A stretch of DNA of 64,000 nt from Martelella sp. NC20 (GTDB taxonomy: Bacteria > Pseudomonadota > Alphaproteobacteria > Rhizobiales > Rhizobiaceae). The number at the start of each line of letters is the position of its first letter. The stretch's first letter is position 1. Shown piece after piece: positions 8,527 through 58,383 of this stretch. The stretch is from NCBI RefSeq assembly GCF_013459645.1, contig NZ_CP054861.1, positions 5,522,824 to 5,586,823 of the forward strand, written 5' to 3'. The notes under the pieces were generated by a model. It was not told the DNA's origin. It was given only the letters and a program-made list of their open reading frames with translations, and searched no databases. The position numbers and the translations under genes are program-made.

Positions 8527-10113
8527 TCAAAACACCGCAACCGAAGCCACCACGGCGAGATACACCAGCACCGCCGCGATCAGCCACAGCGCCACGCGGC
8601 CGGAGCGGGTGTGGCGGGCCTCGGCGCGGCCGATGGCCTCCGAGGTGCGCTCGTCGAAGCGCAGCCCCTTCTCGCTCATGGCGACGATCTCGTTGTGGAA
8701 TTTTTCGGTCTTGTCGGCGATTTCGGGGATCGCCTCGGCGATCTTCAGCACCGCCTGCATGCCATCGCGCATATCGGCGAGCACCCGGCGGGGGCCGAGA
8801 TTCTGCTCGATCCAGCGACCGACCACCGGTTCAGACGCCTTCCACATGTTGAAATGCGGATCGAGCATGCGCGCGACGCCCTCGACCACCACCATGGTCT
8901 TCTGCAGGTTGATGAGCTGGGTCTGGGTGGTCATGTCGAAGATTTCGGTGATCTCGAACAGCAGCGTCAAAAGCTTGCCCATCGAGATGGTTTCCGCCGA
9001 CTGGCCGTGGATCGGCTCGCCGATGGCGCGGATCGCCTGCGCGAACGAGGCCTTGTTGTGGTGCGACGGCACGTAACCGGCCTCGAAATGGGCTTCCGCC
9101 ACGCGCATGTAATCGCGGGTGATGAAACCGTAGAGGATTTCGGCGAGCACCCGCCGCTCCTTCTTTCCGAGCCGGCCGACAATGCCCATGTCGACGGCGA
9201 CGATCATGCCGTCATGGTCGACGAACAGATTGCCGGGATGCATGTCGGCATGAAAGAAGCCGTCGCGCAGCGTATGGCGCAGGAACGACTGGATCAGCGT
9301 CACCGCCAGTTTTTCCAGATCGTGGCCAGCAGCCTTCAGCCCGGCGACATCCGACATCTTGACGCCGTCGATCCATTCCATGGTGACGACATCGCGCCCG
9401 GTGCGCTCCCAGTCGACCACGGGCAGGCGAAACCCTTCGTCATGAACGGTGTTTTCCGTCATCTCGGAGATCGCGGCCGCTTCCAGCCGCAAATCCATCT
9501 CGATCCTGGTGGTCTGCTCCAGCGTGCGGGTGACATCGACGGGCCTGAGGCGCCGGCTGGAACGGACGAAACGCTCCTGCATGCGCGCGACCAGATACAT
9601 CGCGCCGAGATCCTCGTTGAAACGCTGACGAATGCCGGGACGGATCACCTTGACGGCGACCTTCTTCTCGCCCTCCGGCGTCTCGACCATCGCCGGATGC
9701 ACCTGCGCGATCGAGGCCGCGGCGATCGGATCGCCGAATTCGGTGTAGAGTTCATCGACGCTGCGCCCGAGCGAGCCGCGAATGGTCGCCTTGGACGCTT
9801 CCACCGGGAAGAACGGCATCCGGTCCTGCAACTGCGCCAGATCCTCGGCAAAGCCCGCGCCGACGACATCCGGACGGGTCGCCAGAAACTGGCCCATCTT
9901 CACATAGGAGGGCCCGAGCCGCGAGATTGCCTTGCCGAGCCTGTCGGAGCGCGCTTGTCTGCGCGCGCCCGGCCGGGCGAACGGCACCAGCATGGTCTTC
10001 ACCAGCCGGGCAAAGGGCGGCAGGCCTTCCGACGGCAGCGCGTTGATCACGCCTTCGCGGGCCAGCACCCAGCCGACGCCGAGAAGGTTAAGATAGGATC
10101 GAAGCGCGCCCAT
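8527..10113 (-). CDS. ubiB: Ubiquinone biosynthesis protein UbiB (ABC1/ADCK atypical kinase)
   Basis: 528 residues. The family-specific KxGQ motif is present as KMGQFLATRPD (72-82), followed by a protein-kinase-like fold with a VAVKVIRPG lysine strand (about 172-180) and the catalytic loop FFHADMHPGN (about 290-299) and DMG (about 311-313). The C-terminus ends in two closely spaced hydrophobic segments (about 506-528) that anchor it to the inner membrane. UbiB supports coenzyme Q biosynthesis, probably by ATP-driven extraction of lipid precursors. It follows ubiE by 9 bp in the same operon. Confidence 0.95.
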   Translation of the reverse strand: MGALRSYLNLLGVGWVLAREGVINALPSEGLPPFARLVKTMLVPFARPGARRQARSDRLGKAISRLGPSYVKMGQFLATRPDVVGAGFAEDLAQLQDRMPFFPVEASKATIRGSLGRSVDELYTEFGDPIAAASIAQVHPAMVETPEGEKKVAVKVIRPGIRQRFNEDLGAMYLVARMQERFVRSSRRLRPVDVTRTLEQTTRIEMDLRLEAAAISEMTENTVHDEGFRLPVVDWERTGRDVVTMEWIDGVKMSDVAGLKAAGHDLEKLAVTLIQSFLRHTLRDGFFHADMHPGNLFVDHDGMIVAVDMGIVGRLGKKERRVLAEILYGFITRDYMRVAEAHFEAGYVPSHHNKASFAQAIRAIGEPIHGQSAETISMGKLLTLLFEITEIFDMTTQTQLINLQKTMVVVEGVARMLDPHFNMWKASEPVVGRWIEQNLGPRRVLADMRDGMQAVLKIAEAIPEIADKTEKFHNEIVAMSEKGLRFDERTSEAIGRAEARHTRSGRVALWLIAAVLVYLAVVASVAVF

Positions 10114-10122
10114 GATGAATGC

Positions 10123-10899
10123 CTACAGTTTCCAGCCGGAATGAAGGGCAGCGATACCGCCGGAATAATTGGTGAATTTCACGCGCGAGAACCCGGCGCG
10201 CTCGATCATCTTCGCGAAATCGGCCTGATTGGGGAATTTGCGGATCGATTCGACCAGGTAGCGATAGGGCTCGCCGTCGCCGGCAATCGCCTTGCCGACG
10301 CGCGGAATGGCGTGGAACGACCACAGATCGTAGATCTTGTCGAGGATCGGTGCCTCGACCTCGGAGAACTCCAGCACCAGCAGCCGCCCGCCGCGTTTGA
10401 GCACCCGGTAGGCTTCCGCCAGCGCCTTGTCGATATGTGGCACGTTGCGGATGCCGAAGGCGATCGTATAGGCGTCGAATGTCTTGTCCTCGAACGGCAG
10501 GTCCTCGGCATTGGCCTCGACGAAGGTGAGGTTTTCGGCAATGCCCTTCTTGTGCGCGCGCTCCTCGCCGACGGCCAGCATCGAGCCGTTGATGTCGAGC
10601 ACGGTGGCGCGGGCGAAACCCTTCGACGCATCGACGATGCGGAAGGCGATATCGCCCGTGCCGCCGGCGACATCGAGGACATGATAATCGGGATCGGCGG
10701 GTGGATTGAGGCTTGCCACCATCGCGCTTTTCCAGGCACGGTGAAGCCCCGCCGACATCACGTCGTTCATGATGTCGTAGCGTTTGGCAACCTTGTGGAA
10801 CACGTCGTTGACGAGCGGCTGCTTGTCGCCGTCGGCGACACTTTTAAAGCCGAAGGAGGTTTCCATGCCGCCATTGGCGGTGGTCCGGCTATCCGTCAT
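10123..10899 (-). CDS. ubiE: Ubiquinone/menaquinone C-methyltransferase UbiE
   Basis: 258 residues. SAM-binding motif I is [12 protein letters not shown] (about 74-85); the UbiE signatures [17 protein letters not shown] (about 41-57) and later [13 protein letters not shown] and [11 protein letters not shown] are complete. The enzyme methylates the ring carbon in coenzyme Q biosynthesis. I chose the ATG at 10899 because it has GAGG eight bases upstream; the GTG nine bases earlier overlaps that site. Operon with ubiB; divergent from mutM. Confidence 0.96.
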
Positions 10900-11072
10900 T
10901 TTACGCACCTCACGCTTGAAGATGTTCCGTCTGCCCGTTTCGGCTTTCTCAGCCCGACCTGAATTGCTATATCGGGCCTAATATCGGGTCTGCCGCAGCG
11001 ATACACAACAGACGCCGTTGCGGCTATAAACCGAAACCCGGAAAAGCGAAACGCCAAAGGCTTAAAAATACC

Positions 11073-47275: not shown

Positions 47276-48691
47276 ATGACCTCGCTTCTCGCACCGGATC
47301 ACCCGGCTGCAATCGACGGACTGAAAATCAGGGAACAGGTCATCGTGGAGAATACCGCCGGTCGGGTTTCGCGCCCCTTTCAGGTCACGCACCGGCAGGT
47401 TTTCACGATCGCGCTGCCGATGATGATCGCTCATTTCTCGACGCCACTGGTCAGCCTCGCCGCGACCGGCGTGGTCGGTCAGTTGCGCGATCAGGTGCTG
47501 ATCGGCGGCGTGGCGCTTGCCGCAGTGATCTTCGATGTCCTGTTCGTCACCTTCAATTTTCTGCGCGGCGCGACCACGGGCTTTACCGCGCAGGCCGTCG
47601 GCGCCGGCGACCGCCGCCTCGAGCAGCGCATGCTGCTTGGCGGCATCCTGATCGCGCTGGCTGCTGGCCTTCTCATCCTGCTCTTTCATGTGCCGATCGG
47701 CCATCTGGGTCTGGCAGCGCTTGATGCCGACGGCGCGGTCGGCGAGGCGGCATGGACCTATTATGCCTGGCGGGTCTGGTCGGCGCCGTTTGCGCTGTTC
47801 AATTTCGTGGTGTTCGGCTGGGTGATCGGCCGGGGGGAAGCGGTGACGGCGCTGCTACTGCAGGTGGTCCTGAACGCCCTCAACCTGTTTCTGGCTTTCG
47901 CCGGCGTATTGTGGCTCGGTTTGGGGCTTGCCGGAGCCGGGGCCGCAAGCCTGATCGCGGAGGGGCTGACGGCCGCGATCGGCGCGATCCTCATCCTACA
48001 GCGCACCGACCGGCAGCTTTGGGAGTGGCCCGATCTTTCCACCGTCAAGCGCATGTTCTCGGTCAATCGCGACATGATGATCCGCTCGTTCGCCCTTCTG
48101 ATCGGCCTATCCTTCTTCACCCGCCAGTCGGGCGTGCTGGGCACCGAAATCCTGGCCGCCAATACCGTGCTGCTGCGCTATTACTTCCTCGGCGTTGCCT
48201 TTCTCGATGGCTTTGCGACCGCCGCTGAACAGCTCGCGGGGCGAGCGGTCGGCGCGTTCTACCGCCCGGCCTTCGATCGCGTCATCAAGCTCACCACGCT
48301 CTGGGGCATTGTGATGGCGCTGCTGGTGTCGGCAGCCTTCTTCCTGACCGGCCCCGCCGTGGTGGCCCTGATCGCGCCGATCCCCGAAACGCAGGCGCTC
48401 GCCAACACCTACCTGCCCTATGCCGCGATCATGCCGCTCATCGGCGTCATCGCGTTCCAGATGGACGGCGTGTTCATCGGCGCCACATGGTCGCGCGAGA
48501 TGCGCACGCTGATGCTGGTGTCGCTGGCGTGCTATTTCGCCGCCTGGGCCGTGCTGCAGCCGCTGTTCGGCAATCACGGCCTCTGGATCGCGATGCTGCT
48601 GTTTCAGGGCGTACGCTCGATCGTCTTCCGGCTGATGCTGCCGAAACTGGCGAACCGGACCTTTTCCGCCTCCGGCGCGCAACGCCTCTGA
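47276..48691 (+). CDS. MATE-family efflux transporter (DinF-like)
   Basis: 471 residues, about twelve predicted membrane helices. The opening TIALPMMIAHFSTPLVSLAATGVVGQLRD matches the first MATE half; a second related half follows around residue 240 (SVNRDMMIRSFALLIGLSFF). It exports drugs or metabolites by H+ or Na+ antiport. The ATG at 47276 has no clear ribosome site; a GTG at 47345 is an alternative that would remove the first 23 residues. Confidence 0.9.
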   Translation: MTSLLAPDHPAAIDGLKIREQVIVENTAGRVSRPFQVTHRQVFTIALPMMIAHFSTPLVSLAATGVVGQLRDQVLIGGVALAAVIFDVLFVTFNFLRGATTGFTAQAVGAGDRRLEQRMLLGGILIALAAGLLILLFHVPIGHLGLAALDADGAVGEAAWTYYAWRVWSAPFALFNFVVFGWVIGRGEAVTALLLQVVLNALNLFLAFAGVLWLGLGLAGAGAASLIAEGLTAAIGAILILQRTDRQLWEWPDLSTVKRMFSVNRDMMIRSFALLIGLSFFTRQSGVLGTEILAANTVLLRYYFLGVAFLDGFATAAEQLAGRAVGAFYRPAFDRVIKLTTLWGIVMALLVSAAFFLTGPAVVALIAPIPETQALANTYLPYAAIMPLIGVIAFQMDGVFIGATWSREMRTLMLVSLACYFAAWAVLQPLFGNHGLWIAMLLFQGVRSIVFRLMLPKLANRTFSASGAQRL

Positions 48692-48715: not shown

Positions 48716-49699
48716 TCAGCCCCAGACCGTGCCGAACAGCCGCATCCAGTTGCCGCCGAGGATCTTTTCGATGCGGGCTTGCGACCAGCCCCGGCGCTGC
48801 ATTTCCGCGGTCAGGTTCGGGAATTCGTCATTGCGGCGGATTCCTTCCGGCTTGGTAATCTTCGCCGAGCCGAATTCGGTCAGCGTACGGCCGGTGCCCT
48901 TGTCCTTGTTGGCCCACAACAGCCATGGGCCCGGACGCGGCCGGTTGTGGTTGAAGTCCGTGCCGATCGCGACATGGTCCTCGCCGACCAGATCCAGCGT
49001 GTATTCCATGGCGTCGATCACATCGGCAACCGTCGCGTCGTTGCCCCTGGCAAGGCCGGGCGCAAACAGCGAGGTTCCGATGACGCCGCCCTTTTCGGCG
49101 CAGGCCTTGAACACCTCATCCGGCTTGTTGCGCGGCACATCCTTCAGCCCGCGCGGCAGGCAGTGGGTGATGGCAACCGGCTTTTGCGAACAGGCGATCG
49201 TATCCAGCGACGTCTGGATGCCGACATGGGACAGGTCGATGAGAATGCCGCATCGTCCCATCTCGTCGACCGCCTCGCGCCCGAAACCGGTCAGGCCGCT
49301 GTCCTTTTCCTCAAGATAGCCGGCGCCGAACAGGTTCTGGGTGTTATAGGTCAACTGCATGATGTTGACGCCGAGATCCTTGAAGATGCCGAAATAATCC
49401 AGCCGGTCCTCGACCGGCGAGGTGTTCTGCCAGCCGAAAATGATCCCGACCTTGCCTTCCGCCTTGGCGCGGCGGATATCGTCCAGCGTCCTGACCGGCA
49501 TGGCGATATCGGCGTTTTCGGCAAGCTTCTGCTTCCACATGATCACATAGTCGATGCCGCCGCGGAAATTCTCCCACAGGACGGAGGAAGCGCTGATCGC
49601 AGTCACGCCGCCGCTCCGGGCTTCCAGCAGGATGTCGCGATTGAAATCGGAGCATTGCAGCGCGTCGATGACGATCGAGGAGGAATGGAGTTCGTTCAT
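48716..49699 (-). CDS. M19-family (membrane dipeptidase-like) protein, atypical metal site
   Basis: 327 residues from the ATG at 49699. The M19 barrel is clear: ILIDLSHVGIQTSLD (about 154-168), AITHCLPRGLKDVPRNKPDE (about 175-194), GTDFNHNRPRP (about 255-265) and the terminal ILGGNWMRLF. The usual N-terminal HxD zinc pair is not there: the strand reads IVIDALQCSDFN. It may act on something other than dipeptides. Follows the flavin monooxygenase gene and is the last gene of that operon. Confidence 0.78.
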   Translation of the reverse strand: MNELHSSSIVIDALQCSDFNRDILLEARSGGVTAISASSVLWENFRGGIDYVIMWKQKLAENADIAMPVRTLDDIRRAKAEGKVGIIFGWQNTSPVEDRLDYFGIFKDLGVNIMQLTYNTQNLFGAGYLEEKDSGLTGFGREAVDEMGRCGILIDLSHVGIQTSLDTIACSQKPVAITHCLPRGLKDVPRNKPDEVFKACAEKGGVIGTSLFAPGLARGNDATVADVIDAMEYTLDLVGEDHVAIGTDFNHNRPRPGPWLLWANKDKGTGRTLTEFGSAKITKPEGIRRNDEFPNLTAEMQRRGWSQARIEKILGGNWMRLFGTVWG

Positions 49700-49716
49700 G
49701 GCAGTTTTCCTAAAAT

Positions 49717-51147
49717 TCAGGCCGTGACGGTGAGGTCGCTCGCAAGCCATTCCTCGCCGGTCATGTCGGGCACATCATAGTCGCGGAAGCGGGCGAGATG
49801 GATTTCGGCGTCTTCCGCCATGAACGAGCGCACAAGGCCGGAGGCAAGCCTACGCGCGCCTTCGCTCGAGGACGGAATGCCGGAGGTCACCTTGCCGTGA
49901 CTGGGCACGGAGGGATAGGCAAAGCAGGTGAGTTTCGAAAGCGCCGGGCAGGCCCCTTCCGTCTTTGCGGTGAAGGCGAAGTCGGGTCCGAGATAGGGAT
50001 GGGCGGCAAGACCGGGATTTTCAGCCGATTTTTCCGGGCCCATGACATCGCCCCATGTGCGGATATGCGGCGCGAAGGTTTGAAGCTCCGGCCGCTCGGC
50101 CAGATCGATGCCGAAGCCGGTGGCGAAAATGGCGACATCGGCCTCAAGCGCGCCTTTGGGCGTGACCACGCGGATGCCGTCCGCGGTTTCCTCAACCGCG
50201 GTGACCGGCGCGCCGACATGGAGAAAGGCGTTGCCGTGGCGGGCGACGCGCTCGACCGAGTGTTTCGGCGGAGGAACGGGAAAACGGTCGCCCTCGTTCA
50301 TGATCTCCCACTTGACCCGGTCGGGAAGGCCGACATAGCCGGACGTCATGCCGCGCGAACCGGTTCCGGTGAACTTGTCGATCACCGGAATGGCGGGGCG
50401 GCGCACCAGCAGGTCGAGCCGCGCGCAGCCTTGCTCCAGCGCGGTCGCGGCATTGTCCATGGCCGAGGCCCCGGCCCCAACCACGATGACGCGCTTGTCC
50501 TTCAGCGTTTTCGTGTCGAAGACATCGGCGGAATGATAGACCTTGCCCTTCGGGATATGGCGCGCGCAAGCCGGAAGGCGCGGCGCGCCCATGGCGTCAA
50601 GCCCGGTGGCGATCACCACCCGGCGGGCGAGCGCCGGCCCATTCGTCGTCGTCAGGCGCAGCAGATTGCCCTCCGGCGCGATCCCCGCGACATCGCAGTC
50701 GTTGACGACATCCGCCCCGGTCACCCGGGCGAACCAGTTCATATAGTCCATCCAAATGGTGCGCGGCGCGAGATCCATGCGGTCCCAGGCCTTCCCGCCC
50801 CATTGCGCCTCGAACCAGGCGCGGAAGGTCAGCGCGGGAATGCCCATGGCGGGGCCGGCGGCGGCCTTGACGGTGCGCAGCGTCTCCATTCGCGCATAGG
50901 TGATCCACGGCCCCTCCCGCCCCTTCGGCGCCCGGTCGAACAGGCGGACATTGGAAATCCCCTCCATCCGCAGGGCAAGGTTGGCGACAAGGCCGCACAA
51001 TCCGGCCCCGATGATCGCCACATCGAGGACCTCGGCGCCATCCGGGCCGCCCGTCGCCGGCATCCATGCCTTGGGAGGCAGGTTCAGCAGTGTGCGCTGC
51101 CGCTCAAGTTCGGCTTCCAGCGCCACAAGGCCAGAGGTTTCCGTCAT
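49717..51147 (-). CDS. Flavin-containing monooxygenase-type FAD/NAD(P) oxidoreductase
   Basis: 476 residues. Two Rossmann sites: DVAIIGAGLCGLVANLALR (about 42-60) for FAD and RVIVVGAGASAMDNAATAL (about 219-237) for NADPH, with the FMO-like KGKVYHSADVFD (about 200-211) between. FMOs oxygenate soft nucleophiles such as sulfur or nitrogen. It lies directly after the LysR gene and before the M19 gene on the minus strand, so it probably acts in the same pathway as the divergent TRAP operon. Confidence 0.82.
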   Translation of the reverse strand: MTETSGLVALEAELERQRTLLNLPPKAWMPATGGPDGAEVLDVAIIGAGLCGLVANLALRMEGISNVRLFDRAPKGREGPWITYARMETLRTVKAAAGPAMGIPALTFRAWFEAQWGGKAWDRMDLAPRTIWMDYMNWFARVTGADVVNDCDVAGIAPEGNLLRLTTTNGPALARRVVIATGLDAMGAPRLPACARHIPKGKVYHSADVFDTKTLKDKRVIVVGAGASAMDNAATALEQGCARLDLLVRRPAIPVIDKFTGTGSRGMTSGYVGLPDRVKWEIMNEGDRFPVPPPKHSVERVARHGNAFLHVGAPVTAVEETADGIRVVTPKGALEADVAIFATGFGIDLAERPELQTFAPHIRTWGDVMGPEKSAENPGLAAHPYLGPDFAFTAKTEGACPALSKLTCFAYPSVPSHGKVTSGIPSSSEGARRLASGLVRSFMAEDAEIHLARFRDYDVPDMTGEEWLASDLTVTA

Positions 51148-51166
51148 TCGGGTTCAGTTCCTTGCG

Positions 51167-52153
51167 TTACACACCGGAGCGTTCCAGCGACCGGACATCC
51201 GAGGGGTCGTGAAACACGCAGTCTGGTATTGTCGTCGAACAGGCAGCCTCGAAACCTGCCACGAAAGAAAGAAGTTCGCTCGGAAGCACCCGACCGGCGG
51301 CGCTGAAAAGGCCCCAGACATAGGGCAGGTCCACGGCAAGCGGCCGGATCGACACGCCCTCGACGGGAATGCCGAACGCCGTGACCGGATCGATGATGGC
51401 GATGCCGAGCCCGGCGCGGGCGGCCATCATCGCGTTGAGCGACGAATTGGTGACGATCTCGGCGGCGGGGACAATGCGATCCCGCTCCAGAGCGCCGTTG
51501 ATCTTGCCGCGGATGCGATAGGCATTGCCGACGGTCAGCAGCCGCGTTACGGCAAGGCTTTCAAGCGGCAGCGGTTCGCTGACATCGAACGGGCCGCCTT
51601 CGGCAATGGCGGCCACCAGCCGGGAGCCGCAGATCACCTTTGCCTCCAGCGTGGCATGTTCGAGCGGCAGGGCGGAGATGCCGAAATCCGCCGTCCGGCT
51701 GGTAAGCGCGCGCGCGACATGCTCGGCATTCATGGTCTCGATATTGACGACGCCGGGCAGGTCGTCGCCCATATGCGCCAAAGTGGGGCTCAACAGCCCG
51801 CCCGCCATGGTCGGCGTTGCGGCGATATCGATCGCCGCGATGCGGCCGTCCCGGATGGCCGCGGCGCGTTCGCGGATCTGGTGCAGGCCCGACATCAGAC
51901 GCTGCACTTCATCGTAGAACTGGAGGCCCCGTTCGGTCGGCGATATGCGCGGCCCGTTGCGATGGAACAGCGGGAAGCCCACCGAATCCTCCAGCTCCCT
52001 GATCTGCCGGGTCACGGCCGGCTGACCGATGCCAAGCTGTCTGGCAGCCGCCGTCATAGAGCCGCAGGCCATGGCGGCCTGGAAGGCTTCCAGCGTCTTC
52101 ACATCAGAAATTTTATCATTCGATATTGACATATTGAACTCATCATTATCCAT
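51167..52153 (-). CDS. LysR-family transcriptional regulator
   Basis: 328 residues. The N-terminal winged helix: DVKTLEAFQAAMACGSMTAAARQLGIGQPAVTRQIRELEDSVGFPLFHRNGPRISPTERG (about 17-77). The C-terminal PBP2-type co-inducer domain spans about 100-300. The start could also be the second Met (52132). It lies between divergent genes and is likely to regulate both the FMO/M19 genes and the TRAP-to-desulfhydrase operon. The AT-rich intergenic stretch includes ATAT-GTG-ATAT at 52154-52164. Confidence 0.9.
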   Translation of the reverse strand: MDNDEFNMSISNDKISDVKTLEAFQAAMACGSMTAAARQLGIGQPAVTRQIRELEDSVGFPLFHRNGPRISPTERGLQFYDEVQRLMSGLHQIRERAAAIRDGRIAAIDIAATPTMAGGLLSPTLAHMGDDLPGVVNIETMNAEHVARALTSRTADFGISALPLEHATLEAKVICGSRLVAAIAEGGPFDVSEPLPLESLAVTRLLTVGNAYRIRGKINGALERDRIVPAAEIVTNSSLNAMMAARAGLGIAIIDPVTAFGIPVEGVSIRPLAVDLPYVWGLFSAAGRVLPSELLSFVAGFEAACSTTIPDCVFHDPSDVRSLERSGV

Positions 52154-52259
52154 ATATGTGATATTGGCAAGTGCAGATTAAGTCATCGATGCGCAACACG
52201 CCGTCAAGCGGCGATGCGCGGCAAACGCAACGACACGATAAAAACAGAGGAATAGCAGC

Positions 52260-53270
52260 ATGTCTTTGATAACACGCATCGCGGGTATCGCGACGATCGC
52301 CATCGGGACCATCGCCCTGGCGCAGCCTTCATCAGCAACCGAGGTCTGGCGACTGAGCTCGATGATGACGCCCGACAGTTTCGAGGGCAAGGCCTACCAG
52401 AAATTCGCCGATCTGGTGTCCGAATACACCGATGGCGACATCGAGGTGAAAATCTATCCCAATGAGCAGATCGGCTCGATGGATTCGGTCATCGAGCAGC
52501 TCAGCCAGGGGATCATCCAGCTCGCCCCGTCGAGCCTGTCCTTCATGTCGCGCTGGGAAGACAGCATCCGCTATGCCTCGGCGCCGTTCCTGTTCGACAA
52601 TTACGATCAGTGGTCGAATTTCATCGATGGCGAGTTGTTCCAGTCTTGGCTCGGCGCGGTGAACGAAAAGGCCAACATCACCATTCTCGGCAGCATTCCG
52701 GACATGCCGCGCGGCACGTTCCGCACGCTCCTGTCCAACAAGCCGATCGCGTCGGTCGACGACATCAAGGGCTTGAAGCTGCGCCAGTTTCAGGATCAGC
52801 TGGTCATCGATGCGTGGACCTATCTCGGCGCGGAAGTGCGCGTCCTGCCCTGGGGCGAGGTCTATGACGGCATCAATCGCGGCATCGTCGACGCCGTGAC
52901 ATCTCCGGCGGAACTGATCGAATCGACGCGGTTCTATGAAGTCGCGCCCTATATCATCAGGACCGACGAATATCCGCAGGCCGTGGCATGGATGATGAAC
53001 GCCAATGCCTGGGACAAGCTCACGGGCGAGCAGCAGGAAGCCTTCGAACGCGCGCACCAGGAAGCGGCCGCCTATGCCCGCCAGTTGCTGGAAGAGCAGG
53101 CCACGACGCTGAAGTCTGACCTGGAATCGAAGAAGGGCGTCACCGTGAACTTCGACTTTGACACCACGCAGTTCAGCGACAAGATGGCCGCTTTCTATCA
53201 GGACCGCGCCGACAACGGCGAACTACCGGCCGGCCTGATCGAAGCCGTTCAGGCCGCAAAGCAAGAGTGA
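52260..53270 (+). CDS. TRAP transporter substrate-binding protein (DctP)
   Basis: 336 residues. Signal peptide about 1-26. TRAP-type features: EVWRLSSMMTPDSFEGKAYQKFADLVSEYTDGDIEVKIYPNEQIGS (about 28-73), VDDIKGLKLRQFQD (about 165-178) with the conserved Arg that binds a ligand carboxylate, and VLPWGEVYDGINRGIVDAVTSP (about 196-217). It captures a carboxylated solute. First gene of an operon running to the Cds1-like gene. Confidence 0.92.
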   Translation: MSLITRIAGIATIAIGTIALAQPSSATEVWRLSSMMTPDSFEGKAYQKFADLVSEYTDGDIEVKIYPNEQIGSMDSVIEQLSQGIIQLAPSSLSFMSRWEDSIRYASAPFLFDNYDQWSNFIDGELFQSWLGAVNEKANITILGSIPDMPRGTFRTLLSNKPIASVDDIKGLKLRQFQDQLVIDAWTYLGAEVRVLPWGEVYDGINRGIVDAVTSPAELIESTRFYEVAPYIIRTDEYPQAVAWMMNANAWDKLTGEQQEAFERAHQEAAAYARQLLEEQATTLKSDLESKKGVTVNFDFDTTQFSDKMAAFYQDRADNGELPAGLIEAVQAAKQE

Positions 53271-53275
53271 TCGTG

Positions 53276-53797
53276 ATGCGGACGCTTGACGGCCTTCTTG
53301 ACGCCATCGCCAGCCTCTTCAAGGGGCTGGCAACCCTCTGTCTCGCCGTCATGGTCGCCCTGAACCTGTTCAACGTCGCCTTCCGGGCGGTGTTCGATCA
53401 TGCCTTCGGCTGGATATTCTCCTGGACGCTGCTGCTGTTCGTCTGGATGCTGCTGCTCGGCTTCTTCGTCTACATGCGCAACCGCCGCGATGTGGTTGTC
53501 GACATTTTCATGTCGCGCCTGCCGCCGTTATGGCGCCGGATCGGCGGATTGTTCGCCTGTCTTGTCGGCATGGCCGTCATGATCGCGATCCTGCGCGCAG
53601 CCCCGGCGCTGATCGCCTTGCAGCGCGCGCCGATGGATGGCACCGGCCTTCCGATCTGGACCCAGTCGCTGCCGCTGTTCATCTCCTCGGCGCTGGTTTT
53701 CCTGCACTTTCTCTTATCCTTCATCGAGATCGCCACGGGCCGGGTCGAAGCCTTTCCGCGCGACATCGAACCGGTGGAAAAAGGAGCGGTCGAATGA
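53276..53797 (+). CDS. TRAP transporter small permease (DctQ)
   Basis: 173 residues from the ATG at 53276; the GTG at 53267 overlaps the DctP stop and is the alternative start. Four membrane helices with the DctQ pattern: VMVALNLFNVAFRAVFDHAFGWIFSWTLLLFVWMLLLGFFVYMRNRRDVVVDIFMSRLP (about 28-86). Its stop overlaps the DctM start by ATGA. Confidence 0.9.
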   Translation: MRTLDGLLDAIASLFKGLATLCLAVMVALNLFNVAFRAVFDHAFGWIFSWTLLLFVWMLLLGFFVYMRNRRDVVVDIFMSRLPPLWRRIGGLFACLVGMAVMIAILRAAPALIALQRAPMDGTGLPIWTQSLPLFISSALVFLHFLLSFIEIATGRVEAFPRDIEPVEKGAVE

Positions 53798-55083
53798 TCC
53801 TCGGTCTGATCGTCATCGGCGGCTTCGTCCTGCTGATGCTTCTCGGCGTATCGGTTACAATCGCCATCGGCGCCGGGGCCATCATCGGTCTCTACTGGGC
53901 CGGTTTCGGGGATATGGGCCTCGTCATCCCGCAACAGATTCTCGACGGCGCGGCGAAGCCCGCGCTTCTGGCCATCCCGTTCTTCGTGCTGGCGGGCAAC
54001 CTGATGAACACGATCGGCCTGACCGACCGCATCTTCAATTTCTGCCTGGCGCTGATCGGCCATTTCCGGGCCGGCCTCGCCTATGTCAACGTCATCGCCT
54101 CGCTGCTGTTTGCAGGCGTATCCGGGGCGGCGACCGCGGATATCGCCGGCCTCGGCCAGCTTGAAGTCAAGGCGATGCGCGAGCGCGGTTATTCGCTCGA
54201 ATTCTCCGCGGCCCTCACCGTCGCGACCTCGCTTGTCGGGCCGATCGTCCCGCCCTCGATCAGCCTGATCGTTTATGCCTGGCTTGCCAACCAGTCGGTG
54301 GCCCGGCTGTTTCTCGCCGGCATCGTTCCCGGCATCCTGGTCGCGCTGGCCTTCATCCTCTATATCCGTTTCATCTCGATCTGGACGCCGATGCCGCGCG
54401 AAAAACGCGCCAGCATGCGCGATCTGCGCCGCGCCACGATCGAGGGATTGCCGGCTCTGATTGCGCCCGCGATCATTCTCAGTTCCATCATCTTCGGCTT
54501 TGCCACGGCGACGGAAGCGGGCGTGATCGCCTGCGGCTATTCGCTGCTGATCGGCATTTGCTATCGCTCGGTCACCTGGGAGGGCGTCCGCAATGCACTG
54601 GTTGAAAGCGCCGTGCTTTCGTCGCTGATCATGATGATCATCGGCTTTTCACAGATCATGGGCTGGCTGTTTGCCTTCGAACAGGTGCCGCAGGCCTTCG
54701 CCTCGGGCATTCTGGAGGCGATCAGCAAGCCGTGGGTGTTCATGGGGTTCACCATCGTGCTGCTGATCATTATCGGCTGCTTCATGGAGGCGACGCCGGC
54801 CAAGATCATCCTCCTGCCGCTGTTGCTGCCCGCCGCCGATGCCTTTGGCATCGACCGGGTGCAGTTCGGCATGGTGATCACCCTTGCCCTGCTTCTGGGC
54901 ATCGCCACGCCGCCCCTTGGCGTCGGGCTCTATCTGATGTCGGCTGTTTCGGGCGTGCGCTTCGAAAAGCTGGCGATCTCTATCCTGCCACTGCTGATCC
55001 CGCCGATCATCGTGCTTGTCCTGCTGGCGACCGTGCCGGCGATCACGCTCTGGCTCCCCAATCTCATCATGGGACCACAATGA
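53794..55083 (+). CDS. TRAP transporter large permease (DctM)
   Basis: 429 residues, about twelve membrane helices. Family sequences: ALLAIPFFVLAGNLMNTIGLTDRIFNF (about 56-82), VNVIASLLFAGVSGAATADIAGLGQLEVKAM (about 98-128), VGPIVPPSISLIVYAW (about 148-163) and FMEATPAKIILLPLLLPAAD (about 329-348). Uses a Na+ or H+ gradient. Overlaps both neighbours by ATGA. Confidence 0.94.
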   Translation: MILGLIVIGGFVLLMLLGVSVTIAIGAGAIIGLYWAGFGDMGLVIPQQILDGAAKPALLAIPFFVLAGNLMNTIGLTDRIFNFCLALIGHFRAGLAYVNVIASLLFAGVSGAATADIAGLGQLEVKAMRERGYSLEFSAALTVATSLVGPIVPPSISLIVYAWLANQSVARLFLAGIVPGILVALAFILYIRFISIWTPMPREKRASMRDLRRATIEGLPALIAPAIILSSIIFGFATATEAGVIACGYSLLIGICYRSVTWEGVRNALVESAVLSSLIMMIIGFSQIMGWLFAFEQVPQAFASGILEAISKPWVFMGFTIVLLIIIGCFMEATPAKIILLPLLLPAADAFGIDRVQFGMVITLALLLGIATPPLGVGLYLMSAVSGVRFEKLAISILPLLIPPIIVLVLLATVPAITLWLPNLIMGPQ

Positions 55084-55568
55084 CAATACATCATGCCCGG
55101 CCCGACGCGCTGGATCGCGCCGGCGGCCTTGCCGAAAACGACGCCGTCTTCGCCCTTCGCGCGCTTCGCCCTGAATTCCTCAACGGCGCGGAGGATTGCC
55201 GCGTGGCCGTTCTCGCCCCTGAAGACGATCTCGGTCTCTCTCCGGCGCTGCGCGCGGCAATCGCCCGTCGGGTGGCGCTGACGGCCGGCAATGAACGGCT
55301 GCTTGCCGAATATCCGGTCCCCGGGGAGAAGGCCCTTGCACAGCTTTCGCGCGGCAAGATGCCGGACGATGGCCGCCTTGCCGCGATCGCCGCCCATACA
55401 GACATGATCGCCGCCGATCCAGGACAAAGCACCCGCGAAAGCCTTGACGCGCTGCTTGCGGCCGGTTTGACCGTGCCGCAGGTGGTCGCACTTTCAGAGC
55501 TTCTGGCCTTCGCATGCTTTCAGATCAGGGTCGCTCACGGTCTTCACCTGCTGGAGCAATCAGCATGA
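55080..55568 (+). CDS. CMD-domain protein (Avi_7170-like family)
   Basis: 162 residues, start overlapping the DctM stop. Helical protein of the carboxymuconolactone-decarboxylase superfamily: ALRAAIARRVALTAGNERLLAEYP (about 55-78), DGRLAAIAAHTDMIAADPGQSTRESLDALLAAGLTVPQVVALSELLAFACFQIRVAHGL. No CXXC pair, so not a peroxidase by itself. In other genomes this type is paired with the next gene (Avi_7169-like) as it is here. Confidence 0.8.
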   Translation: MTIHHARPDALDRAGGLAENDAVFALRALRPEFLNGAEDCRVAVLAPEDDLGLSPALRAAIARRVALTAGNERLLAEYPVPGEKALAQLSRGKMPDDGRLAAIAAHTDMIAADPGQSTRESLDALLAAGLTVPQVVALSELLAFACFQIRVAHGLHLLEQSA

Positions 55569-56152
55569 GCGCTCTCGGAGCCATCCGCATCAAGCCGCTC
55601 ACCTGGCATCCGCATCTGCCGCCGGTGGAAGTCGAACACGCCACGGCCGAACAGTTGGAAGCGATGAAGGTGACGCCGTCGGCGAAGAAGGTTTCGCCCT
55701 ATGTGCGCACCCTCGCCCACGATCCGGAAAGCTATGTCGCGCGCACGACGCTGTTCAATGCGATCATGTATGCCGAGGGCGGTCTGCCGCGCGCCGAACG
55801 GGAGCTGGGCGCGCTTGCCGCCTCCGGGGTCAATGGCTGCCGCTACTGCGCCAATGTCCACGCCCGTCAGCATATCCGCCTCTCCGGCTCCTCGTCCGTG
55901 ATTGCCGCGCTGTGGACGGAAAACCGGGAGGCGCTGTCCGCCCGCGATGCCGCGATCGTCGATTTCGCCGAAGCGCTGACGGCGACGCCGCCGCGCGCGG
56001 ACGGCACGCATATCGAGAATCTGAAGGCCGCAGGCCTCGAACCTTTCGAGATCATCGACCTCATCCATGCTATTGCAATCTTCGGCTGGGCCAACCGCCT
56101 GATGCATCCGCTCGGCCATTCAGACAATGAAGACAAGAGGACCTCGTCATGA
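55565..56152 (+). CDS. Alkylhydroperoxidase AhpD-type protein (Avi_7169-like)
   Basis: 195 residues. AhpD signature GVNGCRYCANVHARQH (about 89-104) with Cys92, Cys95 and His99, the redox pair used to reduce peroxides. The N-terminal PLTWHPHLPPVEVEHATAEQ and the ending IDLIHAIAIFGWANRLMHPLG are family sequence. ATGA overlaps on both sides. It probably protects the pathway from a peroxide or acts on a peroxide product. Confidence 0.87.
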   Translation: MSALGAIRIKPLTWHPHLPPVEVEHATAEQLEAMKVTPSAKKVSPYVRTLAHDPESYVARTTLFNAIMYAEGGLPRAERELGALAASGVNGCRYCANVHARQHIRLSGSSSVIAALWTENREALSARDAAIVDFAEALTATPPRADGTHIENLKAAGLEPFEIIDLIHAIAIFGWANRLMHPLGHSDNEDKRTSS

Positions 56153-56523
56153 AAGCCATTTCCACCGCAAACGCTCCGGCCGCAATCGGCCCCTACAGCC
56201 AGGCCATCCGCCAGGGCGATCTGCTGTTCGTATCGGGCCAGCTGCCGATCGACCCGGCAACCGGCGCGTTCGTGGAAGGCGGCGCGGTCGAGCAGGTGCG
56301 GCAATGCCTGAAGAATATCGCGGCCATCGCCACTGAGGCGGGAACAGACCTGACGAAAACGCTCAAAACCACCGTGCTGCTGACCGACCTTTCCGGTTTC
56401 AACGATGTCAATGCGGAATACGGCAAGGCTTTTTCCGAACCCTTCCCGGCGCGGGCCTGCTATGAAGTCTCGGCCCTTCCGAAGGGTGCGCTGGTCGAGA
56501 TCGAAGCGATCATCGGGATCTGA
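56149..56523 (+). CDS. ridA: RidA-family 2-iminobutanoate/2-aminoacrylate deaminase
   Basis: 124 residues. Family motifs: AIGPYSQAIRQGDLLFVSGQLPIDPATG (about 11-39), VLLTDLSGFNDVNAEYGKAFSEPFPARACYEVSALPKGALVEIEAI (about 76-121). The catalytic arginine is Arg102, so it is an archetypal RidA that hydrolyses 2-aminoacrylate and other enamines. Its start overlaps the previous stop by ATGA and a cysteine desulfhydrase-like gene follows by 3 bp, giving a clear metabolic reason for its presence. Confidence 0.92.
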   Translation: MKAISTANAPAAIGPYSQAIRQGDLLFVSGQLPIDPATGAFVEGGAVEQVRQCLKNIAAIATEAGTDLTKTLKTTVLLTDLSGFNDVNAEYGKAFSEPFPARACYEVSALPKGALVEIEAIIGI

Positions 56524-56526
56524 CCC

Positions 56527-57648
56527 ATGAGCAGCAACAGCCTGTTGGCCGACAGTCTTTCGATCGCACTGCCCGCCTGCGCCGAACGCGCCTGGGCGCG
56601 CCGCGCCATCGGGCTGTTGCAGGGGGACGCCCGGCGTTCCGCCGACACCCACCTGATCAAGCCGGTTTTCCCGGGCCTTGCCGGCCTGTCCGTCTATCTG
56701 AAGGATGAAAGCACGCATCCGACCGGCAGCCTGAAACACCGCCTCGCCCGCTCGCTGGTTCTCTACGGCATCTGCAACGGGCATATCCGCGAGGGCACGA
56801 CGCTGGTCGAGGCGTCGTCGGGTTCCACGGCGGTGTCCGAGGCCTATTTCGCCCGGATCCTGCATCTGCCGTTCATCGCCGTGATGCCGCGCACGACGTC
56901 GCGCCAGAAGATCGAGGAAATCGAGCGCTTCGGCGGCCGCTGCCACCTGGTCGAGCGCTCGGGCGAGGTCTATGAGGCGGCGCAGCGGATCGCCGGTGAA
57001 ACCGGCGGCCATTATCTCGATCAGTTCACCTTCGCCGAGCGCGCCACCGACTGGCGCGGCAACAACAATATCGCCGAGAGCATTTTCGCGCAGATGGAGA
57101 ACGAGGAGCATCCGACCCCCGAATGGGTGGTGATGAGCGCCGGCACCGGCGGCACATCGGCCACGATCGGCCGCTACATCCGCTACCGCAACCTGCCGAC
57201 GCGGCTCTGCGTCGTCGATGTCGAGAACTCGGTGTTTTACGACAGCTATGTCAGCGGCGACCGCACCGTCAGCCGCGATGACGGCTCCAGGATCGAGGGC
57301 ATCGGCCGTCCGCGCGTCGAGCCATCCTTCCTGCCGACGGTCATCGACCACATGATCCGGGTCCCCGATGCGGCATCGCTTGCGGCCATGCACGTGCTCT
57401 CGCAGCGCATATTCCGCCAGGTCGGCGGTTCGACGGGTACGAATTTCTTCGGCCTTTGCCAGATCGCGGCGCAGATGATGCAGGAGAAGCGCGAAGGCTC
57501 GCTCGTCACGCTGATTTGCGACAGCGGCGCGCGCTATGCCGACACCTATTACAATCCCGACTGGCTGAAGGAAAACGACCTCGACATCGCCCCCTACGTC
57601 GATCAACTCGACCGGTTCCTCGATACCGGCCAGTTGCAGCCCGCGTGA
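56527..57648 (+). CDS. PLP-dependent L-cysteine desulfhydrase-like protein (Cds1 type)
   Basis: 373 residues. The PLP lysine is Lys70 in [21 protein letters not shown] (61-81) and the phosphate/substrate loop is [10 protein letters not shown] (about 96-105). The whole pattern ([38 protein letters not shown], then [19 protein letters not shown]) resembles the mycobacterial L-cysteine desulfhydrase Cds1 rather than CysK. The products would be H2S, ammonia and pyruvate through 2-aminoacrylate. Last gene of the TRAP operon. Confidence 0.85.
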
Positions 57649-57714: not shown

Positions 57715-58383
57715 GGCGTTGTCAGGTAAACCTGTATTGCCTTTGCCTGCGTTTTCGGTTGGGCGTAAATTTCGACGATGCAGACACCAGATATCAGTTT
57801 CAAGCGTCACCGTTTCCCGCCTGAAATCGTTGCTCACGCAGTTTGGCTTTACCTGCGGTTCAATCTGAGCCTGCGTGAAGTTGAGGAAATCCTGCTCGAG
57901 CGTGGTATCGACGTTTCCTATGAGACGGTCCGCCGCTGGATCGCCAATTTCGGACCCCAGATCGCTAGCAACTTGCGGCGGCCGCAAGCCCGCCCCGGCG
58001 ATGTTTGGTATCTGGACGAAGTCGTTGTGAAATGCGCTGGAACCAAGTTCTGGCTCTGGCGCGTGGTCGACCAACATGGCACCGTTCTCGAAGAAGTCTT
58101 GCAAAAGCGACGCGACAAAAGGGCTGAGAATAACCACCTGCCGTTTCGAAAACGGGAACGAACCATGCAAGGCCACCGGTCACCGGGAGCGTTGCAGCGG
58201 TTCGTCGCCATGCACTCCGCTACCCGCAATTGCTTTTCAGTTCCGTCCCGCCGTCGTGCCGCACAAACAATTCGCTACCATCGCCTCGAAGCGTTCGATG
58301 CATGGAAAACTGCGGCCTGCATCGCCTAAAAATTCTGGAGCCGCTGGCCTTTCTCGGCCTGGCAAACTTAACGTGACAATGCC
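57715..58383 (+). mobile_element. IS6-family element, internally deleted remnant
   Basis: Ends are recognisable: left GGCGTTGTCAGGTAAAC (from 57715), right end reading inward GGCATTGTCACGTTAAG (58383 downward), imperfect inverted repeats. Flanking bases do not show an obvious 8-bp target duplication. The 669-bp length is short for IS6 (about 800 bp), which agrees with an internal deletion in the transposase. It sits between the cysteine desulfhydrase gene and the ABC permease gene. Confidence 0.75.
57778..58329 (+). pseudogene. IS6-family transposase with in-frame internal deletion
   Basis: 183 residues remain out of about 230. Zinc-ribbon-less N-terminal DNA-binding part and the DDE core begin normally; the first catalytic Asp is Asp80 in VWYLDEVVVK. 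After RRDK (residue 114) the frame jumps to RAENNHLPFRKRERTMQG, so about 50 residues including the second catalytic Asp (in the VTDGLRSY-type segment) are missing; the third acidic residue Glu117 is retained. It is not expected to be active. Confidence 0.8.

Follow-up and report, generated by a model that had tools for sequence, protein, structure and literature searches.

What does a cluster of ten genes do for its host when a flavin monooxygenase (FMO) and an M19-like protein lie on one side of it, a TRAP transporter, two AhpD-fold proteins, a RidA-type deaminase and a probable cysteine desulfhydrase lie on the other, and a LysR-type regulator stands between them? The question is raised by positions 48716-57648 of a 64,000-nucleotide stretch (the window) from the 6.1 Mb genome of Martelella sp. 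NC20. Organosulfur catabolism is, in our judgement, the likely answer. In the reading that we favour, with a probability of about 0.42, the locus is a LysR-controlled system that takes up an S-substituted cysteine, or an N-blocked (dipeptide, acyl or opine-like) form of it, and degrades it by oxidative cleavage followed by desulfhydration.

A first-pass annotation had drawn this gene set around one LysR gene, with overlapping starts and stops, and the set held: all ten genes are intact within the limits first proposed and form two divergent units. The minus-strand unit runs LysR-FMO-M19-like, with LysR as its first gene, and the plus-strand unit runs TRAP P-Q-M-CMD-AhpD-RidA-Cds1-like. Four-base overlaps join P to Q, Q to M, M to CMD and AhpD to RidA, and also CMD to AhpD, given an AhpD start at the ATG at 55565; a gap of 3 bases separates RidA from the Cds1-like gene. 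The start of the M19-like gene at 49699, which gives 327 amino acids, was taken from alignment. The features are as follows.

47276-48691, plus strand: transporter of the MATE family, probably an accessory exporter (Pfam MatE at 76 bits, cut-off 24.9)
48716-49699, minus strand: M19-like amidohydrolase with a degenerate metal site (Pfam PF01244, 257 bits, cut-off 26)
49717-51147, minus strand: FMO, resembling class B flavin monooxygenases (both Rossmann motifs, G(x3)H(x4)F and FATGF; modelled fold closest to PvdA/SidA-type N-hydroxylases)
51167-52153, minus strand: LysR-type regulator (Pfam HTH_1 and LysR_substrate)
52154-52259, no strand: region from which LysR and the TRAP operon diverge (MAFFT alignment of 10 regions)
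52260-53270, plus strand: TRAP solute-binding protein, DctP family (PF03480, 206 bits)
53267-53797, plus strand: TRAP small permease, DctQ (PF04290)
53794-55083, plus strand: TRAP large permease, DctM (PF06808; TIGR00786, 372 bits)
55080-55568, plus strand: CMD, an AhpD-fold protein without CxxC, or pseudo-AhpD (AlphaFold2 model, Foldseek, alignment)
55565-56152, plus strand: AhpD-like protein with complete E...CxxC...H (TIGR01926, 168 bits)
56149-56523, plus strand: RidA-type enamine/imine deaminase (TIGR00004, 158 bits, cut-off 106.25)
56527-57648, plus strand: Cds1-like pyridoxal phosphate (PLP) enzyme, probable L-cysteine desulfhydrase (NF052478, 572.3 bits, cut-off 600)

The annotation had called for a check of conserved gene order. 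We found the window's order in four other Martelella genomes (L032, L033, L034 and L146; L numbers are our loci) and in Labrenzia sp. OB1 (L042); Palleronia (L073) has it in mirror image. This recurrence indicates more than a chance grouping, and a chance cluster was rejected. An FMO ortholog at least 84% identical is present in 5 of the 13 Martelella genomes searched (the window's included); the other 8 hold only a relative at 38-44%. Around the FMOs that are at least about 69% identical (the window, L032-L035, L039, L042, L072, L073, L079 and L146), the M19 and TRAP genes are present in 11/11 loci and CMD in the same stretch in 10/11. The L072 stretch is without CMD, and that record's CMD copy is in L115.

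The tightest unit is FMO plus CMD-AhpD, which is spread more widely than the full ten-gene set. Counting was done from CMD, since FMO-based counts would be misleading: the broad FMO family has at least 2574 members at E ≤1e-40. The 32 loci drawn by CMD alone comprise 13 from a genome contig search, 12 plasmid records taken by CMD match from 42 with such a match and chosen against near-duplicates, and 7 genomes out of a set of 8 with CMD, from which the window's own genome was left out. The FMO family is present in 23 of the 32 loci, a TIGR04027-type luciferase-like monooxygenase (LLM) in 6, a doubtful LLM in 2 (L123, where the query was taken from L123 itself and the match is circular, and L124, only 33% identical) and neither in 1. 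Adding L073, L076, L077 and L079, drawn by FMO, and L084, drawn by Cds1, gives a set of 37; five further distinct Martelella CMD loci (L141, L142, L143, L145 and L146), with FMO in 5/5, bring the number to 42. L147-L149 are strains already counted, L144 is without CMD, and the L084 and L114 stretches hold neither FMO nor LLM. Among the CMD loci are close relatives, and the loci do not count as independent; L037 and L038 belong to two strains of a single species.

Loci with both FMO and CMD come from 15 named genera: Martelella, Labrenzia, Stappia, Yoonia, Monaibacterium, Pacificibacter, Pseudooceanicola, Palleronia, Salipiger, Thioclava, Ketogulonicigenium, Rhizobium, Neorhizobium, Microvirga and Pantoea. 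By the listed record sources, carriers of this core include plant-associated and coastal bacteria. Such an FMO occurs at E ≤1e-60 in only 21 of 337 genomes of the class, so a chance FMO beside CMD should be rare; by our own estimate, made with no tool control, the chance of one within a 20 kb neighbourhood is about 1% or less. In Pantoea, Rhizobium tumorigenes, Neorhizobium and Thioclava, the FMO gene immediately adjoins CMD-AhpD and is read in the same direction.

The neighbours of this core point to organosulfur compounds. BisC-type S/N-oxide reductase genes were found in four loci, directly before CMD in L116, L117 and L120 and beside Cds1 in L084, from whose stretch FMO is absent; the L084, L117 and L120 proteins score 722-769 bits, under the cut-off of 1017. 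Five loci carry a SufS-like desulfurase (L039, L072, L076, L111 and L143; for L072, CMD is elsewhere in the record). The motif RGGCAC, which we take to be the catalytic-cysteine loop, is invariant in 5/5 of these proteins, and in L143 the genes SufS-like-FMO-CMD-AhpD lie on one strand. A Blh-like (persulfide-dioxygenase-like) dioxygenase, with 535 and 546 bits against a cut-off of 625, is encoded in L076 and L111, both with a TauE exporter, which would fit the burning of cysteine for carbon or nitrogen with export of sulfite. RidA-Cds1 is present in L032, L033, L034, L036, L042, L073, L120 and L146, and Cds1 alone in L084; Cds1 (nine loci) and the SufS-like protein were found together in none. 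At a distance of 6 kb from M19, L072 also has a ChaC-type gene, of a family that acts in glutathione breakdown. The BisC, SufS-like, Blh/TauE (two loci) and Cds1 neighbours back the catabolism of cysteine-derived or organosulfur compounds that the annotation had proposed, and it is the accompanying roles, M19 as a peptidase and CMD/AhpD against peroxides, that are weakened.

The Cds1-like protein is a probable L-cysteine desulfhydrase, as judged from its family and motifs. K70, SSGST at 97-101 and GTGGT at 206-210, presumably the lysine and phosphate-binding motifs of a fold-type II PLP enzyme, are invariant in 10/10 sequences. Its score of 572.3 bits falls just under the NF052478 equivalog cut-off of 600, and its L120 relative scores 567.4; the earlier name of desulfhydrase agrees with family and motifs and falls short on score. 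RidA acts on 2-aminoacrylate, and the argument that RidA makes sense beside a desulfhydrase is strengthened, since the pairing recurs, also in loci without FMO or CMD. In three such loci (L081, L082 and L083), RidA-Cds1 stands by TRAP or TctABC-type transporters together with an MtaA-like protein (scanned in L083 and L081), a member of the methylcobalamin methyltransferase family.

The FMO carries both Rossmann motifs (GAGLCG at 47 and GAGASA at 224, GxGxxG/A) and the FMO-type motif GKVYHSADVF at 201 (G(x3)H(x4)F), which make up the signature of a class B flavin monooxygenase, and FATGF at 341. Naming it by family failed: it is below the cut-off of all six NCBIfam families matched, and its PDB sequence matches are weak. 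An HCCA-isomerase-like protein with a DSBA domain is encoded between FMO and CMD in L119, L141, L142 and L145. An HCCA-isomerase-like gene is also beside FMO in L074, L075 and L096, in stretches where no CMD-AhpD was found, and M19 follows the FMO/HCCA genes in L074 and L075. The host genome holds a second FMO relative, 34-35% identical (G000:C1:275032-276291; L071, L090), which adjoins cytosine-deaminase-like and Pot-type ABC genes; CMD/AhpD are absent from that stretch.

CMD scores 60.6 bits on TIGR04029 (cut-off 100.75) and has no Pfam match at E 1e-5. Its AlphaFold2 model has a predicted local distance difference test (pLDDT) value of 93, and the Foldseek ranks 1-37 are all AhpD/CMD-family structures (probability 1.00, best E 0.0096). 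AhpD scores 168 bits on TIGR01926 (cut-off 81.8) and 148.7 bits on TIGR04030 (cut-off 233.15). The E/CxxC/H motif of AhpD is kept in 37/37 loci, and CxxC is present in the aligned part of CMD in 0/37. Whole CMD frames contain CxxC in 2/37, within the fused AhpD half in L040 and upstream of the aligned part in L041. L040 (Stappia sp. BW2, 9896-11011) encodes CMD and AhpD in one reading frame, CMD first; this fusion, seen in 1 locus of 37, supports a physical CMD-AhpD pair. We infer a complex of one active and one empty subunit, which would resemble the two-domain AhpD-like layout discussed for sestrins and YciW in the portion of PMC11429811 used here. The peroxide role given earlier to the pair stands as one possibility only, with CxxC confined to AhpD lending it no specific support. 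Since the pair occurs along with flavin monooxygenases, it may act on what these enzymes produce rather than on peroxide. The Bmp8 debrominase, among the Foldseek matches of the CMD model, is a precedent for an AhpD-type fold that performs thiol chemistry on small molecules.

The M19-like protein belongs to the family PF01244, with a Pfam match that starts at profile position 38. Catalytic M19 enzymes have a canonical HxD metal motif. Here HxD is replaced (D13-x-L15) and the bridging Glu is replaced by Q92 in 11/11 aligned sequences, the window's included; the Glu of PDB 3id7 aligns with the Gln, and H159, H180 and D249 are kept. An ordinary dipeptidase role was judged unlikely with these ligands missing, which makes the peptidase first proposed doubtful. 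At a guess, the protein acts on an amide, a hemiaminal or a similar adduct. A search of the host genome for a second M19 match found none. PDB 2i5g is likewise without HxD, and the M19 subfamily without the HxD and Glu ligands (11 sequences aligned) is annotated as dipeptidase. We take 2i5g to be P. aeruginosa PA5396, a neighbour of dimethylglycine genes; our literature search for PA5396 as a dipeptidase found nothing.

The TRAP transporter is complete, with DctP, DctQ and DctM all matched. Its binding protein was uninformative on substrate identity, the best PDB relatives being generic DctP entries. Other loci have an amino-acid ABC transporter in place of TRAP (R. etli L076, Pantoea L077, L110, L121, R. 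tumorigenes L111, Thioclava L115 and Rhizobium L118) or, by the binding protein, a peptide-type ABC transporter (L037, L038, L040, L041, L084, L112-L114, L116, L117 and L120). The amino-acid ABC binding proteins gave weak, ambiguous matches to Lys/Arg/Orn and cystine models. The hydrolase slot also varies, being filled by M19-like, M24-like, proline-iminopeptidase-like or HyuA-like proteins. A cation diffusion facilitator and a metal-sensing repressor are encoded nearby in R. etli L076.

Outside the limits drawn by the annotation, a MATE gene lies 24 bases from the M19 stop. In Martelella L141, L142 and L145, a gene 86-88% identical directly follows AhpD (FMO-HCCA-CMD-AhpD-MATE); for this reason we added the window's MATE gene to the system, to which it probably belongs. 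L146 and L147 (the latter from the strain of L032) likewise have MATE next to the ortholog cluster, and in L119 two tblastn pieces of it follow AhpD; L148 and L149 were searched for a MATE match, and none was found. In the MAFFT alignment of ten regions, the window included, a CATTATCCA...GGCAAG-like block at window positions 52120-52190, in the divergent region and the LysR 5' end, is common to several genera. Its conservation suggests a candidate regulatory site, and LysR may start at an internal ATG near 52132.

Under oxidative cleavage and desulfhydration of a substituted cysteine, the TRAP transporter would bring in the carboxylate. The FMO would oxygenate it at or next to the sulfur, and the S-substituent would leave, perhaps as an aldehyde, with formation of a sulfenate. 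AhpD, through its CxxC and with the catalytically empty CMD as partner, would reduce the S-oxygenated product to the thiol, and the M19-like amidohydrolase, through an unusual chemistry, would take off the group that blocks the nitrogen or some related adduct. Cds1 would then convert the freed cysteine to H2S and 2-aminoacrylate, RidA would turn the latter into pyruvate and ammonia, and the MATE protein would export a by-product. The scheme starts from what was observed (which genes are present, their order and motifs, how they recur, and how many of their neighbours relate to sulfur) and proposes from this the substrate, each reaction step and the CMD-AhpD complex.

Several findings weigh against this scheme. 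The best folds for the FMO model (mean pLDDT 79, some parts below 50) are PvdA, KtzI, DesB and SidA, which are amino-acid N-hydroxylases; N-oxides, too, are substrates of BisC enzymes. Near L111, L112 and L119 there are opine dehydrogenase genes, and caprolactamase-like HyuA genes near L112 and L113 (both scanned). The transporters vary between loci, so the substrates may vary too. The FMO family extends well beyond loci with the CMD pair, with CMD in 1/10 class-wide FMO-drawn regions, taken from 20 other genomes with an FMO match. RidA-Cds1 is present in only 8/42 distinct CMD loci; Cds1 is widespread alone (31/297 genomes of the order at E ≤1e-60), and among the nine Cds1-drawn regions L081-L089 RidA adjoins in 3 and CMD-AhpD in 1. 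The remoteness of E. coli YciW, which matches CMD and AhpD weakly (28% over 99 and 21% over 132 residues), counts on the same side.

Part of this evidence favours a route without sulfur, which we consider unlikely. The FMO would N-hydroxylate or N-dealkylate an amino compound (an amine, an opine, perhaps a metal-binding one, or a lactam-derived amino acid), AhpD/CMD would remove flavin-leaked peroxide, and the Cds1-like protein with RidA would be a general beta-eliminating deaminase pair; the N-hydroxylase folds, the opine dehydrogenase and HyuA genes, and the dimethylglycine genes next to PA5396, the presumed source of the M19 relative 2i5g, fit this picture. A Mesorhizobium study on serpentine soil (PMC5315480) links growth in nickel to candidates with neighbouring numbers (opine dehydrogenase, flavoprotein involved in K+ transport, peroxidase-related enzyme, polar amino acid ABC transporter). 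Compared by name only, these correspond to the FMO, AhpD, amino-acid ABC and opine dehydrogenase genes in L111. This match may mean an opine or metal link outside sulfur, a further point against cysteine breakdown; in the part of that paper used here, the candidates are put forward as nickel-adaptation genes only, without chemistry, and CMD is not named. The SufS-like, Blh-like, TauE, Cds1 and BisC neighbours are hard to account for without sulfur. An alliinase-like route, in our judgement rather improbable, would retain the sulfur: the FMO would make an S-alkylcysteine S-oxide, the Cds1-like enzyme would beta-eliminate it to 2-aminoacrylate and R-SOH, RidA would clear the enamine, and AhpD/CMD would reduce R-SOH or a thiosulfinate. 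Class B FMOs that oxidise S-allylcysteine occur in garlic, and the route employs every enzyme of the plus-strand operon, accounting for RidA beside Cds1 and for a thiol redox enzyme. However, Cds1 is absent from 33/42 distinct CMD loci, the BisC-type reductase in the FMO loci L116, L117 and L120 would reverse the step, and the Cds1-like score is near that of a cysteine-specific model (572 of 600).

It is very unlikely that the locus is two independent units, FMO/M19 and TRAP-RidA-Cds1, each with a substrate of its own and with only the regulator region in common. L081 does have TRAP-RidA-Cds1 and M19 without FMO or CMD, and L082 and L083 have a TctABC-type transporter (by eye), the MtaA-like protein, RidA and Cds1, but L081 keeps M19 and TRAP together with RidA-Cds1, and the adjacent, co-directional FMO and CMD-AhpD genes of the four genera named above speak against such a division.

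The B. subtilis salvage of S-alkylcysteine has a transporter and a local regulator, and its CmoO and CmoJ monooxygenases belong to the LLM class. The B. subtilis routes for S-modified cysteines are the closest systems by function to the breakdown of an S-substituted cysteine that we favour. CmoO makes a sulfoxide, CmoJ cleaves it to a sulfenic acid and an aldehyde, and reduction follows; this salvage (ytm-ytn operon) resembles our scheme in its flavin monooxygenase, a sulfenic acid that needs reduction and a cysteine product (PMC10863075, in the sections used). It differs in N-acetylation and deacetylation, acetylation being called crucial in all the S-modified cysteine cases described so far (PMC12757645, in the excerpt used here), whereas the Martelella set has a class B FMO, the CMD/AhpD pair and a desulfhydrase. 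Profile scans found no N-acetyltransferase or deacetylase among the ten genes, and no LLM over the TIGR04027 cut-off was found in the host genome (three weak matches lie outside the cluster). Of 11 annotated plasmid CMD regions (L073, L076, L077, L079, L110-L115 and L121), whose annotation tables are incomplete, one has a GNAT gene (L110, 5.5 kb away) and one an M20-type hydrolase (L113). The locus would be a variant of S-modified cysteine salvage set apart from the described B. subtilis routes, which use N-acetylation.

The B. subtilis yxe (scm) S-(2-succino)cysteine pathway and the 2SL lyase pathway were compared together; here, too, an S-modified cysteine is oxygenated (PMC9706529). The difference is that YxeK is a CmoJ/DszA homologue (PMC10863075) within an acetylate-cleave-deacetylate scheme, and AhpD, RidA and Cds1 go unmentioned in the portions of these papers used here. 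The families TIGR04027, TIGR04029 and TIGR04030 (LLM_KPN_01858, CMD_Avi_7170 and perox_Avi_7169) are alike in gene context, with CMD and AhpD relatives beside a flavin monooxygenase in L043, L044 and L125-L128. That monooxygenase is an LLM instead of an FMO (two scanned on TIGR04027 score 541 and 548 bits, cut-off 413), and the window's CMD and AhpD are below the cut-offs of those models. The literature search returned no function for the three families, and K. pneumoniae KPN_01858 is named only as a monooxygenase higher under iron limitation in the part of PMC7194016 used here.

E. coli YciW, described as two AhpD-like domains (PMC11429811), combines CMD-like and AhpD-like halves in one protein, as does the L040 fusion; its sequence is remote and its cysteine spacing is not the same, as far as the section of that paper used here goes. 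The part of PMC10821248 that was used reports a CysB motif for YciW and a link to cysteine tolerance, which speaks for our favoured reading; no FMO was found in the 13 kb around E. coli yciW. M. tuberculosis Cds1 converts cysteine to H2S and pyruvate (PMC8389258, in part); the window protein is of the same family and differs in scoring below its cut-off. The first-pass annotation knew of no described pathway with this gene set. For function this holds, none being found in our literature search, with most subscription journals outside its coverage, and the similarly named set in the part of PMC5315480 used here is in print as nickel candidates.

If cysteine breakdown proves right, a CMD/AhpD pair so far known only as hypothetical families would gain a function, which would perhaps be a lead for YciW in the cysteine metabolism of E. 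coli. Plant-associated and coastal bacteria would then have an S-modified cysteine route that needs no N-acetylation and is built on a class B flavoenzyme. Legume hosts are rich in S-modified cysteine compounds. The analysis also flags an M19 subfamily annotated as dipeptidase without the usual metal ligands, and suggests an idea that can be tested on one set of Mesorhizobium candidates for soil adaptation. A bolder extension, which we regard as speculative and improbable, would make FMO-CMD-AhpD a widespread, N-acetylation-free machine for oxidative C-S cleavage. It would take naturally N-blocked substrates (dipeptides, lactams, opine-like compounds) through interchangeable transporters, with a class B enzyme replacing the LLM, a sestrin-like heteromer (one AhpD subunit active, the other empty) capturing and reducing the sulfenate, a peptidase-like protein or amidohydrolase replacing the deacetylase, and RidA-Cds1 or SufS-like/Blh/TauE disposing of the sulfur.

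The Cds1-like gene is immediately followed, at 57778-58329, by a partial frame for an IS240-type transposase (Pfam DDE_Tnp_IS240, 41/139 positions matched), and an ABC permease gene is also found downstream.

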